In this document: piece by piece, positions 51,061-57,606 of the stretch | How positions within the stretch are numbered: the stretch's first letter is position 1 | How the letters are laid out: every line of letters starts with the position of its first letter | NCBI GenBank assembly: GCA_017620015.1 | Contig: JAFZRE010000025.1 | Span: forward strand, 1 to 64,000 | Direction of reading: 5' to 3' | Source: Bacteroidales bacterium | Lineage (GTDB): Bacteria > Bacteroidota > Bacteroidia > Bacteroidales > ML635J-15 | Length of the DNA stretch: 64,000 bases | Program-made: the position numbers and the translations under genes | Notes under the pieces: model-generated | The model's input: the letters and a program-made list of their open reading frames with translations, nothing else | Databases searched by the model: none | Told to the model about the DNA's origin: nothing

Positions 51061-54000
51061 CTATTCTTTTACAAACCTCCGCACACTGAGCGTAGTCGAA
51101 GTGTCGGATTTCGCAGCGTGAATGCGTACCACATACACCCCTGCCTTCAATCCTTCCACATCACAAATCACATTGTCGCTGTTTGCCTCAATGCGCTTCA
51201 CAACCTGACCGAGCGTATTTACAATCTCGATTTCGGAAATTGTTTCGGAAGATGTGATGTTGAGGATGTCGGTAGCGGGATTCGGGAAGAGGGCGATTTC
51301 AAGAGCGACGTTTTCCTCGATGTTAGTAGCAGGAATGAATGTTGCAATGTAGGTTGCATCGCCAGTAACGGTAATTGTACGTAAGGTATCTGTATTGCCG
51401 TCGTTCCACGATAAAAATTCGTAACCATCGTTGGCGGTTGCTGAAATTTGTATCTCTGTGTTGGCTTCATATACGCCTGTTCCTGTAGTTGTGCCGTATG
51501 CATTGTTGTTGCTTATCACAAAGATATTGTAGTGCTGCACACTATTAACCGTAAGATGCAATGTCACAACACTGTCGCAACCATTGGCAGCAGTGAATGT
51601 CTGAACATAGTTGCCACTTTCGGTATAGGTCTGACCGTTCCAAACAAATTCGCCATCAGTAGTTTCTGTTATAGCATTGGTTACAGAATAACCAGCAACC
51701 ACGCTTGCCGATGCCATTGCCGTACAACCATTTGCATTGGTAGCAATAACGCTATAAGTGCCGCCATTGCTTACATCTATCGAATTTGCGGTTGAACCGT
51801 TTGACCACATATAGGTTTCGCCACCATTTGCGGTTAACGTTGTCGGTTCTCCATCACAAATATGAAGGTTACCATTGATGACCGGATTTGGCGTTGGTGC
51901 AACAAATACGGTGACATTGGCTGTTGATGAGCATCCACCGTTGCTCGTTGCGGTTACCGAATAGATTCCAAATGCATTTACACTGATTGCAGATGAAGTT
52001 TCGCCAGTTGACCATACATACGAAACACCACCACTTGCTGTCAAGGTTTCGTTGCTGCCTTCGCATACGGTTGTGTTGCCACTAATTGTAACTTCTGGTG
52101 CGGAATACTGTACAACCGCCATTGATGCGCTTGATGTACAGCCATTTGTGCCAGTTGCTATTACCGAATATGTTCCTGCTTCGGAAACATTGATGCTCGA
52201 ACCTTGGAATCCATTGCTCCAAACATACGAAACACCGCCTTCGGCAGTCAGATATGTTGCGCCACCTACGCACATTGAAGGTTCTCCGCTTATTGTAACT
52301 GTCGGATTTTCCATAACATTCACAGTCGCTGATGCACTAGCCGTACATCCATTGCTGTTTGATGCAATTACGGAATAATTTCCAGAACTTGTTACGTTGA
52401 TATTTGCACTTATGCTTCCGTTGCTCCAAACAAACGAATCGCCGCCAGTTACCGAAAGGGTTGTGCTTTCGCCTTCGCAAATAGAAAGAGTTCCGTTAAT
52501 TTGTGGCGAAGGGCTTTCGTTCACGGTAACCATTGTGCTTGCTGTCGCTGTACAACCTGCGCCGTTGGTTACGACAACCGTATATGTGCCGCCAGTTGTT
52601 ACCGATATGCTTGCATCGGTTGAGCCGTCGCTCCACTGATACGAAGTTCCGCCGTTTGCAAGAAGTGTTGCCGATGAACCGCTGCATATCGATTGCTGAC
52701 CGCTAATGGATGCCACTGGATTTTCTGCTGCGGAAACAGTTGTAGTTGCATAGCCTGTGCAGCCGTTTACATCGGTAACGATTACCGAATATGTTCCGCT
52801 AGCAGAAACAGAAACAGATGCCGTATTAGCACCATTTGACCATGCGTATGTGCTGACATTAGACGGTGATATTCCGCTTACTGTAAGTGTTGCAGATTCG
52901 TTTCCGCAGATGCTTGTGTTGCCTGCCAATGAGAGCGAAAGTTGTTCGGCAACTGCCACGCTCGTTGACGCCTGAGCCGTACAACCATTGCTGTTTGTTA
53001 CGGTTACGGTGTAGTTTGTTGTTGCTGTTGGCGAAACAGAAATTGATGTTCCGCTTCCGCCGTTGCTCCATACGCAACTTGTAAGCGTAGTGCCCAAATT
53101 GTCGGAAACCGACAGTATTGTACTGCCGTTGTTGCATATTGTCTGCGGAGCGGTGATGTTGAGTTGAGGATTAGGCGAAATTACCACATCGGCACTTGCT
53201 GTTGCCTCACAACCAAGAACATTGTATGCAGTAACAATATAAGTTCCAGATTGTGTTGGATTTATGCTTGCTGTGTTTGCCGAATTTGACCAGTTGTAAG
53301 ATGTTCCACCGCTTGCAGTAAGCGTAACAGATTCGCCTTGACAAGCAGTGAGGTTGCCGCTAATCTGAACCGATGGATTCGGTGCGGAAACAACGCTTGT
53401 TACTGCCGATGCAGTACAACCAGTTGCATTTGTAACGGTTACCGTATATGCACCAGCCGACGATGCTTCGATGCTCTGCGTGTTTGCCCCGTTGTTCCAA
53501 GCGTAACTTGTACCGCCGTTTGCAGTAAGGGTTGTGCTTGCTCCACCGCAAATTGCCGTAGTGCCGCTTATTGTAGCGGTTGGCAAGGCGTTTACTGCCA
53601 CATATACAGATGTATGTGCCTCGCAGGTTGAGTTGGTTGCTGTTACCGAGTACAGTCCCTCGTCGGTTACTTGGATAGATTGTGTTGTTGCGCCTGTACT
53701 CCACAGATAACTAGTTGCCTCCGAAACCGACAATGTTGTGCTTTCGCCTTGGCAGATTGATGTATTTCCTGAGATAACTACTTCTGCAAAATTTGCAACA
53801 TTTATGTATGCAGTATCTTTACAGTCGTTTGATGCACGGGCAATTACATAGTATTCGCCGGTTTCCGATACATTTATTGACGGAGTGGTTGCGCCTGTGC
53901 TCCATACATAGCCGACTCCGCCCGATGCCGTAAGTGTAGTGCTGTTGCCAGTACATATATAGGTATTTCCGCTTATGCCCGCTGTGGGTGCGGGGATAGT

Positions 54001-56109
54001 TGAAATATCGATGCTTGCCGATGCCGTGCAGTTGAAGACATCGGTAACGGTTACGGCGTATGTGCCAGCAGTGTTTGCTGTAATTGCTGCACCGCTTTCG
54101 CCAGTTGACCACGAGTATGAACTTATGCTTCCCGATGACCACGGACGCCCGGCATGGATTGTAGTATTGGTGTTATTACAAATAGTTGTATTATCGGCAG
54201 TAAGCACTACAGCAGCATTGCAGGCACGGGTAGTGAAATCCACAGTATTGCCATATATTGTCATGTCGCCAATTTTTACAAACATTCTATAATTATAGGT
54301 AGTACCGATTGTAAGTCCCGTAAGATTGTACGAAGCAGGAGATTCCACATTGGTATATACAGTTATCCATTCCGATGCCGATGCTTCTTTCCACTCGAAG
54401 CCCTGCATATCAACTGTTCCATTCCAAAATTCTCCATTATTATATGAGCCATTCATAGTAGCCGTAGTAAAATCTATATTTGTAACAGGTTCGGTTATGA
54501 CATTACATACCGACGAACCAAATATTGGATAGCCATCATTTACATTTGGTGACAAGTCCATTACAAACGCCTCTGGATTTAGCAATATTGGAAACGATTC
54601 AGACTTCATTGCCTCCTCTGTTTTCGATGTACCATTACCACCATTGCTACCGCAGGTTTCCAAGTAATAACTATTTGTAGTTGTACTATTCCCGATACCA
54701 TATTTATATATATGGCTACAATATGTAGTAGGAGTAGTAAGTGTACCTGTATTGTAGCAATTGGTGCTTATACCATTATACCCTATTCCAGAAGCATATC
54801 CGTATGCGTATTGATAATACGAACTTCCCGCAGTCTTTTGGGCTGTTGCTGTAACAGTACCCCTATTGTAACTGTTATTTATTGTATTGTATGACGGTTC
54901 AACACCATAGCCTAACAATCCGCCAGAATATGAATATACTTTTGAGTAATTTGTTGCTGCGCTATTGCTTGCCGTTGATGATACTGCGCCATTATTGTAG
55001 CATAGCAATATTGTAGAATTCTTTGAGGAGGAGTTAGCATTCGAATACCCCACTATACCTCCGGAATATGAATATGTATTCAATAAAATGGAAGAAGAAT
55101 ATCCTTTGCCAGCAGTAGATGCCGACGAAGATATGTTTCCTGTGTTGACACATTGGGTAATTGTTGCTTTTGTTTCTATATTTCCAACAATACCACCAGA
55201 ATATGAACTATAAGAACGTGTTAGTTCTGACCCAGTCATAGTTGATGTGGATGTACTGCTCAATGTTGCAGAAACATTTCCAGAATTACTGCAATTGCTA
55301 ATAGAAACAGTAGAGTTTGCATATCCTATCAGCCCGCCTGAATATGGATGATAAATAGCAGATGTTGCCGTAGATGATACATTCCCAGAATTACTGCAAT
55401 TGCTAATAGAAATAGTGCCGTATGCACATCCTATCAGCCCGCCTGAATATGATGATTTAGAACCAGAATTAACTGATAATACATTACCAGAATTACTGCA
55501 ATTGCTAATAGTAACAGCAGAGTATGCATATCCTATCAGTCCACCTGAACATGATGGATTAGAAGATGTTGCCGTAGATGATACATTTCCAGAATTACTG
55601 CAATTTTCAATTGTTACAGTAGAGTATGCATATCCAGCAATACTGCCAAAATAGCAAATATTACTTGCTGAACTCCTTGTAATTCTTCCTCCAATATTAA
55701 CATTTTGGAATATGCTACCATCTACATACCCGAACAAACCTCCGTATTGCAATGTGGTACTATTAATTTTCAGTTTGTCAATAGTATGATTGTCGCCATC
55801 AAAGTTGCCTTTGAATATCGCACTTGAAGTATTGTAATTTCCAATAGGTGACCATTCTAGACTATCCAAGTCAATATCAACTGTCAGTTTAAAGTACTTG
55901 CCTGAGTATTGGTTTACGCCACCATTTACCATTTCTGCAATGTAGGCAAGGTTCTGGGCACTTTCAATAAGGTAGGGGTCGGCTTGGGTGCCTGTGCCGT
56001 GTGTCCACGATACTGCAGTACCATCCCATGTGCTGGTCTGGGAAAAGGCATTGGGGAGAGCCAATGCAAGCAACATGAGGGTTGCTAAGAAAAATCTAAA
56101 ACTTCTCAT
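51061..56109 (-). CDS. Giant T9SS surface protein with GLUG and Ig-like repeats
   Basis: A 1682-residue secreted protein. The ATG at 56109, one base after the upstream gene's stop, opens the signal peptide (RFFLATLMLLALALPNAFSQ); an in-frame ATG at 56136 is less likely. Residues ~80-480 carry many GLUG-type units (YSGGLIGYA, VTISNCSNSGNV). From ~630 to ~1470 there are about twelve Ig-like units of ~70 residues with the pattern ISGNTTICxGESTTLTASGG then SYxWSNG and GTYSVTVTNxxGCTA. An InlB-type repeat (VYEANTEIQISATANDGYEF) and a sorting domain (LFPNPATDILNITSSE to AGVYVVRIHA) end it. A CTGAGC repeat overlaps the last residues. It is probably a surface adhesin. Confidence 0.93.
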   Translation of the reverse strand: MRSFRFFLATLMLLALALPNAFSQTSTWDGTAVSWTHGTGTQADPYLIESAQNLAYIAEMVNGGVNQYSGKYFKLTVDIDLDSLEWSPIGNYNTSSAIFKGNFDGDNHTIDKLKINSTTLQYGGLFGYVDGSIFQNVNIGGRITRSSASNICYFGSIAGYAYSTVTIENCSNSGNVSSTATSSNPSCSGGLIGYAYSAVTISNCSNSGNVLSVNSGSKSSYSGGLIGCAYGTISISNCSNSGNVSSTATSAIYHPYSGGLIGYANSTVSISNCSNSGNVSATLSSTSTSTMTGSELTRSYSSYSGGIVGNIETKATITQCVNTGNISSSASTAGKGYSSSILLNTYSYSGGIVGYSNANSSSKNSTILLCYNNGAVSSTASNSAATNYSKVYSYSGGLLGYGVEPSYNTINNSYNRGTVTATAQKTAGSSYYQYAYGYASGIGYNGISTNCYNTGTLTTPTTYCSHIYKYGIGNSTTTNSYYLETCGSNGGNGTSKTEEAMKSESFPILLNPEAFVMDLSPNVNDGYPIFGSSVCNVITEPVTNIDFTTATMNGSYNNGEFWNGTVDMQGFEWKEASASEWITVYTNVESPASYNLTGLTIGTTYNYRMFVKIGDMTIYGNTVDFTTRACNAAVVLTADNTTICNNTNTTIHAGRPWSSGSISSYSWSTGESGAAITANTAGTYAVTVTDVFNCTASASIDISTIPAPTAGISGNTYICTGNSTTLTASGGVGYVWSTGATTPSINVSETGEYYVIARASNDCKDTAYINVANFAEVVISGNTSICQGESTTLSVSEATSYLWSTGATTQSIQVTDEGLYSVTATNSTCEAHTSVYVAVNALPTATISGTTAICGGASTTLTANGGTSYAWNNGANTQSIEASSAGAYTVTVTNATGCTASAVTSVVSAPNPSVQISGNLTACQGESVTLTASGGTSYNWSNSANTASINPTQSGTYIVTAYNVLGCEATASADVVISPNPQLNITAPQTICNNGSTILSVSDNLGTTLTSCVWSNGGSGTSISVSPTATTNYTVTVTNSNGCTAQASTSVAVAEQLSLSLAGNTSICGNESATLTVSGISPSNVSTYAWSNGANTASVSVSASGTYSVIVTDVNGCTGYATTTVSAAENPVASISGQQSICSGSSATLLANGGTSYQWSDGSTDASISVTTGGTYTVVVTNGAGCTATASTMVTVNESPSPQINGTLSICEGESTTLSVTGGDSFVWSNGSISANINVTSSGNYSVIASNSNGCTASASATVNVMENPTVTISGEPSMCVGGATYLTAEGGVSYVWSNGFQGSSINVSEAGTYSVIATGTNGCTSSASMAVVQYSAPEVTISGNTTVCEGSNETLTASGGVSYVWSTGETSSAISVNAFGIYSVTATSNGGCSSTANVTVFVAPTPNPVINGNLHICDGEPTTLTANGGETYMWSNGSTANSIDVSNGGTYSVIATNANGCTAMASASVVAGYSVTNAITETTDGEFVWNGQTYTESGNYVQTFTAANGCDSVVTLHLTVNSVQHYNIFVISNNNAYGTTTGTGVYEANTEIQISATANDGYEFLSWNDGNTDTLRTITVTGDATYIATFIPATNIEENVALEIALFPNPATDILNITSSETISEIEIVNTLGQVVKRIEANSDNVICDVEGLKAGVYVVRIHAAKSDTSTTLSVRRFVKE
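51082..51106 (-). repeat. CTGAGC..GTCGA repeat at the end of the giant gene
   Basis: cactgagcgtagtcgaagtg lies eight codons before the stop, encoding STTLSV just before the terminal RRFVKE. Confidence 0.8.
51690..54230 (-). repeat. Tandem Ig-like repeat region of the giant gene
   Basis: About twelve diverged units of roughly 210 bases each, encoding the CxGxSxTLTAxGGxSYxWSNG pattern. Variation between units is high, so recent expansion is not obvious. Confidence 0.75.
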
Positions 56110-56110
56110 A

Positions 56111-56788
56111 TCAATTTTCTTTTTTATTATTTTCATTGTTTGCTTTTAATTTATTAATAAATTTCGGCAGATAATCTTTTATAATTTCCGTTATCTTACC
56201 AGTTAATGGTCCTCCAATCTGGGAAATACCTGTTACCAAAACTCCACTGATTGTTTCATATATTTTAGAAGTTGTACTTATGCCGTTGTCATTTAAAAGA
56301 GCAACGAGGTTATTGTAATGAACATTTGCATAGTCTTTACAAATAGCCAAATATGCAGGAACTGACAACTTAACTATTTCTGGGGAGAATGAACCATCTG
56401 TTATATACTTATTCTCTTTTAGTTTCGCTCTCAGAAAATCCATTAGCATAGGATTCTCAATTTCAAGACAAATTTTATTGTCTGCAACTAATATCGATTC
56501 CGACTCCAATAGTTTTGTCAATTCTTGCTTTAAATCTTCATCACTACTTCTGCGTAAACTCGATTCGGCAATAAGGGTTCTCGCCTTTGCTCTGGTAACT
56601 TTTAACTTTGACATTACATCATAAACATCTGGATAATTGCCAATCAATCCAAGGTCTTGCAATGCCCTGAATATCATTATATCCGTTTCTTTCTTGGTAA
56701 GGGAGCCAAATGTAGGTTCCGTGTACCTTTCTATGATGGCTTCTAAGATATCATGTTCATTTGATTTTTTTGTTGAACTAAGTTTCAT
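56111..56788 (-). CDS. Unknown helical protein upstream of the giant surface gene
   Basis: I do not recognise this 225-residue protein. It has no signal peptide, is rich in Lys, Glu and Ile, and is predicted mostly helical. A possible helix-turn-helix lies at ~50-75 (DVMSKLKVTRAKARTLIAES). Near the C-terminus ISGVLVTGISQIGGPLTGK is a Gly-rich hydrophobic stretch that could insert in or lie on a membrane. It ends KANNENNKKEN. Its stop is separated by one base from the giant gene's start, so they are almost surely cotranscribed; regulation or assembly of that protein is possible. The DNA is AT-rich. Confidence 0.7.
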   Translation of the reverse strand: MKLSSTKKSNEHDILEAIIERYTEPTFGSLTKKETDIMIFRALQDLGLIGNYPDVYDVMSKLKVTRAKARTLIAESSLRRSSDEDLKQELTKLLESESILVADNKICLEIENPMLMDFLRAKLKENKYITDGSFSPEIVKLSVPAYLAICKDYANVHYNNLVALLNDNGISTTSKIYETISGVLVTGISQIGGPLTGKITEIIKDYLPKFINKLKANNENNKKEN

Positions 56789-56837: not shown

Positions 56838-56884
56838 CTCCCATAATTTTATTTACGAATTACGATTTTTGATTTACGATTTTG
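56838..56884. repeat. TTTACGA-type short repeat
   Basis: tttacgaattacgatttttg then atttacgattttgag; the same unit appears at 43557-43590 and in weaker form at 57254-57285. Confidence 0.55.
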
Positions 56885-56984: not shown

Positions 56985-57150
56985 AAATTTGGAGTTCAAC
57001 ACATAAAAAAATCGTGAACTTCAATTCGCATCTGAGGTTCTGGACTACCCGTTACTACAAATAAGAAAGCTCACGATTACTCGCGAGCATTTCCGCTTTT
57101 TTCTGTAGTAACGCTGAAATTGTCCAGATTTCAGATGCCGTCAAAAGCAA
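56985..57150. ncRNA. Candidate structured RNA with a long segmented hairpin
   Basis: Three exact stems are nested: GCATCTGA (57028-57035) with TCAGATGC (57131-57138); TCTGGAC (57039-57045) with GTCCAGA (57122-57128); CGTTACTACA (57050-57059) with TGTAGTAACG (57104-57113). An inner GAAAGC/GCTTTTTTC stem closes an apical loop. The loop segment TCACGATT (57071-57078) is complementary to AATCGTGA (57010-57017) upstream, allowing a pseudoknot or alternative fold. The strand is undecided: a TATCTTTG box at 57243-57250 would transcribe it on the minus strand, either as its own RNA or as a leader of the 56.8-kb operon. A 6S-like RNA is one possibility; an extended palindromic DNA element is another. 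Confidence 0.5.
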
Positions 57151-57242
57151 AAACGCCTTTATATTTTAATTATCAATCAAATATCTGTTTTATTTCATTG
57201 GCAAATGTTTTTAAGTTCTACATTCGGTTAAAATTTACGGGA

Positions 57243-57250
57243 CAAAGATA
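57243..57250 (-). promoter_or_regulatory. Possible promoter facing the structured RNA and 56.8-kb operon
   Basis: TATCTTTG on the minus strand, ~105 bases before the hairpin and ~455 bases before the ATG at 56788. No clear -33 TTG was seen. Confidence 0.4.
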
Positions 57251-57294
57251 AAAAATATTTACGATTTTAGAATTACGATTGAAGAATTTATTTT

Positions 57295-57606
57295 GCCTTC
57301 GGCGTTTCTGTGGCTTCGCCGTTTCTATGCTTGCGGCGTTTCAATGGCTTCGCCGTTTCTCGCTTCGCTGTTTGAATGGCTAAAGCCGTTTCTGTGCTTC
57401 GCGTTTCTCGCTACGCTGTTTCTATGCCTTCGGCGTTTCTGAGGCTTCGCCGTTTAACTTCGTTGAGGGCTTCGCCGTTTCTCGCTACGCTGTTCGAATG
57501 GCTGACGCCGTTTAACTTCGTTGAGGGCTTCGCCGTTCTCGCTTCGCTGTTTAACTTCGTTGAGGGCTTCGCAGTTCAATGGCTGAAGCCGTTTCTGGGT
57601 TTCTCC
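57295..57606. repeat. Array of ~17-base mini-palindrome units
   Basis: About 17 units follow each other, each a small palindrome (ggcttcgcc, gccttcggc, ggctgacgcc, ggctaaagcc or gcttcgc) followed by gtttctat, gtttctc, gtttgaat or gtttaacttcgttgag. Single units of the same type occur at 31.15 kb and 43.74 kb, and several lie beyond the ATPase gene at 59.33 kb. Confidence 0.8.

Follow-up and report, generated by a model that had tools for sequence, protein, structure and literature searches.

A leader RNA family across Bacteroidota, apparently undescribed, with a putative strand-exchange switch upstream of many surface-protein genes

Introduction

A long segmented hairpin lies in a spacer near 57 kb of the window, by which is meant the whole stretch of 64,000 nucleotides from a Bacteroidales genome that was analysed here. 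The initial annotation, made from the letters, had proposed a candidate new structured RNA with a possible pseudoknot and had offered two readings: an RNA gene, perhaps of the 6S type, or a leader structure of the 56.8-kb operon. The locus raises the questions of whether the hairpin is used as RNA, which strand carries it, and what it might do for the genes that lie beside it.

Results

The hairpin and its strand

The three nested stems of 8, 7, and 10 bp were found exactly where they had been placed (Table 1), and the long-range complement is likewise exact (AATCGTGA at 57010-57017 and TCACGATT at 57071-57078), being part of a 12-nt pair that is 92% complementary. The judgment that such an arrangement is unlikely by chance was also borne out, given fold z-scores of -7.2 on the plus strand and -6.5 on the minus strand; none of 200 shuffles equalled the fold stability of the hairpin region. 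What had to be revised was the extent and the direction: the hairpin was positioned correctly, but the RNA is on the minus strand and reaches past the interval of 56985-57150 that had been assigned to it. A BLASTN search of the window's own genome gave three further copies (69-73% identity), which align to the minus strand of the window from 57260 to ~57033, that is, from the promoter box through the hairpin. Because the homologues align to the minus strand, the transcript is taken to run from 57250 to 56990 (-), with transcription expected to start near 57236. A plus-strand reading was considered and rejected, given the homologue alignment, the promoter position, and the asymmetry between G-U and A-C pairs described below.

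The leader occupies ~230 nt behind the promoter box, with a core at 57168-56999 (-), and its parts are arranged from 5' to 3' as H1, P2 outer, P2 inner, P3, the apical hairpin A:B, a linker, strand C, a U-run, and strand D. On this strand, the "pseudoknot" is a pairing between the 3' arm of the apical hairpin and a strand located further downstream, which is followed by seven U residues. The putative switch role of A:B, the hairpin at 57160-57140 (H1, with the form AAAAAAGC-loop-GCUUUU), and strand D had been absent from the initial annotation. P2 consists of an outer stem (6 modelled bp) and an inner stem (7 bp) with a conserved loop, GAAA/ACCUC, between them, and a second conserved internal loop, AAUUU/GGGUA, separates P2 inner from P3; across classes, these two aptamer-like loops flank the P2 inner stem within covarying helices. 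The apical hairpin of the family can be written GCUCACGC/GCGUGGGC, strand C sits 50-80 nt downstream of B, and the fold predicted for the window contains an AGUUCA/UGAACU hairpin that corresponds to C:D.

Table 1. Positions in the window of the hairpin stems, the parts of the leader RNA, and the genes downstream
Feature	Position	Strand	Sequence	Basis or remark
Stem 1, 8 bp	57028-57035 / 57131-57138		GCATCTGA / TCAGATGC	plus-strand letters
Stem 2, 7 bp	57039-57045 / 57122-57128		TCTGGAC / GTCCAGA	plus-strand letters
Stem 3, 10 bp	57050-57059 / 57104-57113		CGTTACTACA / TGTAGTAACG	plus-strand letters
Promoter -7 box	57243..57250	(-)	TATCTTTG	sequence; Bacteroidota sigma-A consensus TAnnTTTG
H1, small 5' hairpin	57140..57160	(-)	AAAGGCGUUUUUGCUUUUGAC	near-invariant in genus
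P2 outer stem, 5' arm	57131..57138	(-)	minus GCATCTGA	compensatory changes at every modelled pair
P2 outer stem, 3' arm	57028..57035	(-)		exact pairing and compensatory changes
P2 inner stem, 5' arm	57122..57128	(-)	minus TCTGGAC	flanks GAAA / AAUUU conserved
P2 inner stem, 3' arm	57039..57045	(-)	minus GTCCAGA	flanks GGGUA / ACCUC conserved
P3 stem, 5' arm	57104..57113	(-)	variable, 10 bp here	permutation test
P3 stem, 3' arm	57050..57059	(-)		exact pairing, permutation test
Strand A, apical hairpin 5' arm	57081..57088	(-)	minus GCUCGCGA	A:B permutation
Strand B, partner of A or C	57069..57076	(-)	minus UCGUGAGC	permutation
Strand C, second partner of B, partner of D	57012..57021	(-)	minus AAGUUCACGA	permutation
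U-run, terminator-like	57005..57011	(-)	seven U	immediately 3' of C
Strand D, pairs with 5' half of C	56991..57000	(-)	minus UUGAACUCC	C:D permutation; fold
First downstream gene, 225 aa	56111..56788	(-)		leader-gene distance 211 nt
Second operon gene, 1691-aa secreted protein	51061..56136	(-)		GLUG motif, Ig-like domain, T9SS sorting domain

Covariation of the helices

Compensatory changes in homologous loci had been named as a check and were found in both parts of the long stem. In the genus alignment (30 sequences, from 42 collected copies), both sides have changed in 12 of 26 pairs. A more distant set, alignment A7, consists of sequences that were not used in building the covariance model; there, 97.2% of the cells are paired, compared with 75.7% when shuffled and 34-39% when slid, and the covariation score is 0.605 versus 0.182. 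Alignment A5, which includes the model's own sequences, gives a similar picture, with one measure (further pair types) not above the shuffles; both alignments were fitted to the model, which somewhat favours it. Compensatory changes are seen at each pair of the P2 inner stem in the wide sets, and H1, helix 1 of A7, has 87% of its cells paired and both sides changed in three of four pairs. Because a first RNAalifold alignment left P3 unresolved, this stem was tested by permutation, and an alignment-light duplex test gave z-scores of -54.8 for P2 and -43.4 for P3 (175 copies for P3). Within the apical helix, A7 and A5 together contain 201 G-U pairs versus 3 A-C mismatches. Thus, selection acts on the minus strand as RNA. 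Taken together with the lack of an Rfam match in the copies tested, the covariation upholds the proposal of a candidate new structured RNA.

Mutually exclusive pairings beside a U-run

Strand C can pair with either B or D, and the two complementary stretches have its central bases in common. A:B and B:C exclude each other, as do B:C and C:D. When own partners were compared with exchanged partners among 177 non-redundant copies, the z-scores were -18.4 for A:B, -16.7 for B:C, and -11.0 for C:D, values reached by none of 2000 permutations, while the control pairing A:D gave 0.1. Such permutations remove the relatedness between copies incompletely, and among 57 copies less than 72% alike the corresponding scores are -10.9, -9.2, and -4.7, with -0.1 for the control. 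As in an attenuator, the helices share strands, are mutually exclusive, and are each conserved. The exchange is seen most clearly in individual copies that preserve B:C with quite different letters: L030 has GCGUGGG/CCCACGC, and two copies from outside the class, each with a U-run after the pairing, have GGACGC/GCGUCC (L337) and GGGCAUUUCC/GGAAAUGCCC (L336). A U-run right after C, also a property of attenuators, is present in 182 of 192 copies (137 of 140 plus 45 of 52); ~5% of copies are without a clean U-run, and three scored copies gave a weak B:C under the automatic parse. A pairing of H1 with the tail of C and the U-run is weak (z -5.3 in 175 copies and -2.4 in the 57 dissimilar ones), and the region 5' of H1 showed no pairing with D or with the C tail by permutation (z -0.8, -0.2).

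Promoter, downstream genes, and neighbouring elements

The TATCTTTG box, to which attention had been drawn from the sequence, is real: on the minus strand it occupies 57250-57243, a position suited to transcription of the leader RNA, which itself lies between promoter and gene on that strand. The reading as a leader structure of the 56.8-kb operon is supported. The form TAnnTTTG is given as the sigma-A consensus for Flavobacterium in PMC9723704. Of 176 copies, 140 have such a box on their own strand, no more than 110 nt upstream, where 14 would be expected; the opposite strand has 16. Of 110 copies, 85 have an open reading frame of at least 100 aa that starts no more than 250 nt downstream, compared with 23 of 110 in the upstream, divergent direction, and the median distance from leader to gene is ~54 nt in the wider set. 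The RNA therefore has the position of an attenuator, that is, of a 5' leader with a promoter upstream and a gene downstream on the same strand.

In ~30 copies, fewer than 10 nt separate the end of the promoter box from H1; transcription is therefore expected to begin at H1 or close to it in these copies, and no leader peptide is needed. A leader peptide or minigene had been considered, given an ATG-NNN-stop (e.g., ATGACATAA) that seemed conserved ~40 nt before H1 in many copies; it was rejected, since ACGAAACAG occupies that position in other copies.

Within the genus, the genes behind the leader encode BspA-like and T9SS-sorted surface proteins, and one variable small gene often comes first. 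These small genes are unrelated across the genus, like an exchangeable cassette (window 56111-56788 (-), L037:530-1336, L036:820-1557, L021:1835-2590), and they include products with no Pfam match, with EVE plus HNH, with a GIY-YIG-like domain (by eye), and others; the 225-aa protein of the window is one with no Pfam match. More widely, signal-peptide-like starts were seen in 81 of 151 first genes by a crude rule, and LRR_5, Por_Secre_tail, Fib_succ_major, DNA methylases, ResIII, and TonB plug domains lead the Pfam matches for 119 first genes. PADLOC matches are headed by restriction-modification methyltransferases, and restriction enzymes were confirmed individually. The Pfam content of the first genes gave no obvious common pathway.

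Several further observations concern the surroundings of the element. One copy (L310, G109:C35) is upstream of two genes that resemble zorA/zorB of Zorya when the sequence is read by eye. In L075, L089, L004, L242, and L077, a short XRE-like gene starts ~0-20 nt past the U-run, followed in L075 and L089 by small peptides with GG-type leaders (RiPP-like). A DUF805b-like motif lies at 56837-56806 (-) in the window, downstream of the leader and ahead of the start codon of the 225-aa gene, with a score below threshold (14.6 bits; E 0.24, from a search of small size), and a full DUF805 RNA (L103:1710-1775, 75.9 bits) directly follows the leader RNA in another locus, giving two cis-elements in one leader. 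Upstream of the promoter in the window, a run of imperfect 15-17-nt repeats (GGCTTCGCCGTTTC...) occupies 57295-57600, of which one 49-nt segment is found again in L002 (545-593) at 92%, with shorter segments at other places. On either side of the element, at 56850-56883 and 57256-57289, there is a spacer repeat of (A)TCGTAAA/ATTCGTAAAT units, which is also present before several promoters of the genus.

Distribution of the family

Among 60 relatives, close copies are mainly in the genus, with about a dozen in one genome. Searches with covariance model R1, whose E-values are rough, gave matches in 18 of 26 genus genomes, in 142 of 393 genomes of the order Bacteroidales (E<=1e-3), in 76 of 396 genomes of the class (E<=1e-5), and in 26 of 296 genomes of the phylum (E<=1e-6); these tallies are probably low, because the stricter filters of the large searches lose weak matches. 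The window's own genome has 16 model matches at E<=0.01, of which at least 10 are firm. Weak matches were inspected by eye, down to ~46 bits in this genome, and nearly all carry the core; L332, at 37.5 bits, is doubtful. Outside this family but within the order, matches scoring 55-69 bits had been suspected of being false, since a strict regular expression missed them, but the suspicion was rejected: their alignments show the core, in some cases with a longer apical loop. Two copies in family f60 of the order, L300 and L301, have an insertion of ~40 nt between A and B in the apical hairpin.

When 84,980 species genomes were searched with an independent pattern for the apical hairpin, at least 80 loci were obtained. 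All 80 listed also match the covariance model, and the listed matches are titled as members of Bacteroidota or as uncultured bacteria, among them Bacteroidales, Flavobacterium, Mesonia, Rikenella, Millionella, Odoribacter, Tannerella, and Sunxiuqinia. Viral contigs gave no pattern matches, so a virus origin was rejected, and plasmids gave chance-level matches only. Many copies lie ~165-300 bp from a contig start (G109:C24, G109:C36, G046:C597, G100:C564, G025:C9, and others), as if the assemblies had been broken by a repeat just upstream. Many scattered copies with transposon-like ends had been named beforehand as the mark of a DNA element; many copies there are, but no mobile-element structure was seen. 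A mobile DNA element was rejected on this ground as well, since the orientation-independent insertion and the absence of strand preference that characterize a transposable or REP element were not found. The leader RNA is thus a large and apparently undescribed family across Bacteroidota, found upstream of many surface-protein genes and some phage-defence genes; the genes behind it are largely for secreted or surface proteins, joined in certain lineages by restriction-modification and other defence genes.

Discussion

A model for the switch

Given all of these findings, it is postulated that the RNA is a cis-acting 5' leader family that probably works as a transcription attenuator by means of a strand-exchange switch, a model drawn from comparative sequence analysis. 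A duplex just upstream of a U-run can release RNA polymerase, as in intrinsic termination. When A:B is closed, C would be free to pair with D, and the polymerase would continue into the operon; an exchange of B from A to C would instead create a duplex right at the U-run and stop transcription. Because the energies of A:B and B:C differ little (-12.8 and -12.2 kcal/mol in the window), a modest input could tip the switch, and this input would most likely be a ligand or a protein acting on the conserved P2 internal loops, which are a candidate sensor. The exchange would most likely take the form of a pseudoknot at the arm tip, because P2 plus P3 is too stable for B:C to undo; a nested B:C would destroy both helices, which is energetically implausible. 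With P2 and P3 intact, B:C is a pseudoknot whose linker of ~10-14 nt must reach the apical region, and part of P3 may have to open. The possible pseudoknot of the initial annotation finds its support in this pairing of C with the arm tip.

Other explanations

C:D forms after the U-run has been made, and because of this order it may act on translation rather than on termination. The same cis leader could then have translation or mRNA stability as its output, with C:D versus B:C gating the start region and with the U-run as a pause or an unpaired spacer. This explanation is unlikely, although it has points in its favour: many copies have D not far from the start codon, C:D covaries, type-1 copies of the genus have a conserved D hairpin just before the ATG, and the U-run is broken in some copies. 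However, a U-run after C in nearly all copies suits a terminator and has no obvious role in translation, and ~200 nt separate D from the ATG in the window.

It is rather improbable that the RNA is instead a protein-recruiting antitermination leader, like JUMPstart/ops-RfaH or EAR, whose arm loads a factor for long surface or defence operons. A multi-copy regulon that includes long surface-protein and restriction-modification genes would suit such a leader, and the conserved bases of the internal loops resemble a protein or ligand site. Loaders of this kind, however, need no conserved strand exchange beside a U-run; furthermore, many of the targets are short single genes, and no NusG-like neighbour gene was noted in the ORF lists.

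Highly improbable is a free-standing small RNA, either 6S-like or trans-acting, that ends at the U-run and is upstream of genes by location alone. The RNA has its own promoter and a terminator-like 3' end, but a gene on the same strand soon follows in most copies, C:D is conserved past the U-run, and many divergent copies per genome precede unrelated genes. The 6S idea with which the locus was first approached has to be given up, since neither the window nor the homologues tested have an Rfam match to 6S or another small RNA; moreover, the RNA occurs in multiple copies and lies shortly before a gene.

A palindromic DNA element (MITE, REP, or recombination site) can be dismissed almost entirely: the element is palindromic, dispersed, and multi-copy, several copies are ~200 bp from contig ends, and a RAYT-like (Y1 transposase) gene is directly upstream in one orthologous pair (L021:851-1441, L041:1794-2393), but orientation is fixed between promoter and gene, the apical helix keeps G-U and avoids A-C (201 vs 3), selecting one RNA strand, the pairings beyond the palindrome (B:C, C:D) covary, homology spans from the promoter to near the gene, and matches in viral contigs are lacking.

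A possible regulon

For the attenuating leader, a wider and distinctly more tentative hypothesis can be put forward, in which the RNA might be a phylum-wide riboswitch or protein-sensing switch for a global signal, present in up to tens of copies per genome and jointly controlling the cell surface (T9SS cargo, BspA-like proteins, SusC) and anti-phage systems (restriction-modification, Zorya-like) as an RNA-based regulon of outward-facing genes. If so, surface proteins, nutrient receptors, and defence genes would share a layer of RNA control in Bacteroidota of the gut, rumen, soil, and aquatic habitats, and the controlled genes would be those that shape host interaction and phage susceptibility. 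The explicit switch strands allow a direct test by single and compensatory mutants, and the many copies lend themselves to a search for the signal by reporter screening.

Comparison with known RNAs

Rfam 15 gave no match to the element at the gathering threshold, with chance-level matches only under permissive settings, and none to the element in 39 further loci. The main text of PMC9723704 reports 64 structured 5' regions in F. psychrophilum, that of PMC2864571 describes Flavo-1 and other motifs, and that of PMC8040213 presents thousands of unnamed microbiome RNA candidates; the leader RNA is not identifiable from these three main texts. Apparently it is without a described counterpart in Rfam 15 or in the openly readable literature searched, and an earlier mention may exist elsewhere. 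Flavo-1 (RF01705), a widespread Flavobacteriaceae RNA motif in sense and antisense whose function is described as unclear in PMC9723704 and PMC2864571, gave nothing, even at E<=1, when four Flavobacterium loci with the element were searched.

Among individual families, 6S-Flavo (RF01685) is likewise a long segmented hairpin from the same phylum. However, 6S RNA is free-standing and usually has one copy per genome, whereas the leader RNA has 16 covariance-model matches and is found in cis before genes; the window was negative for 6S-Flavo at both gathering and E-value thresholds, as was the rest of its own genome. The DUF805 and DUF805b RNAs (RF03081, RF02914) are also cis-regulatory, but each is a distinct motif, smaller than the leader RNA and adjacent to the start codon, that lies beside the element (window, L103) and does not overlap it; their covariance models matched next to the element and not over it.

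The JUMPstart/ops element, with RfaH, is a leader element of long surface-structure operons. Unlike the leader RNA, it is a short gamma-proteobacterial element, and JUMPstart (RF01707), which is listed in PMC2864571, has no match here.

The attenuators of the trp and riboswitch types share with the leader RNA their partner-sharing strands, a U-run after one alternative, and a position between promoter and first gene. The differences are that here the U-run follows the second competing helix (B:C), whose 5' strand is at the tip of a 100-nt arm, that ~30 copies have no room for a leader peptide (promoter box within 10 nt of H1), and that one RNA type stands before unrelated genes across a phylum. 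The c-di-GMP-I model gave no significant match (12.7 bits, E 9.6, outside the core). Nevertheless, GEMM (c-di-GMP-I) riboswitches are known to occur in many copies per genome upstream of diverse surface-type genes, and in this arrangement the leader RNA is like them.
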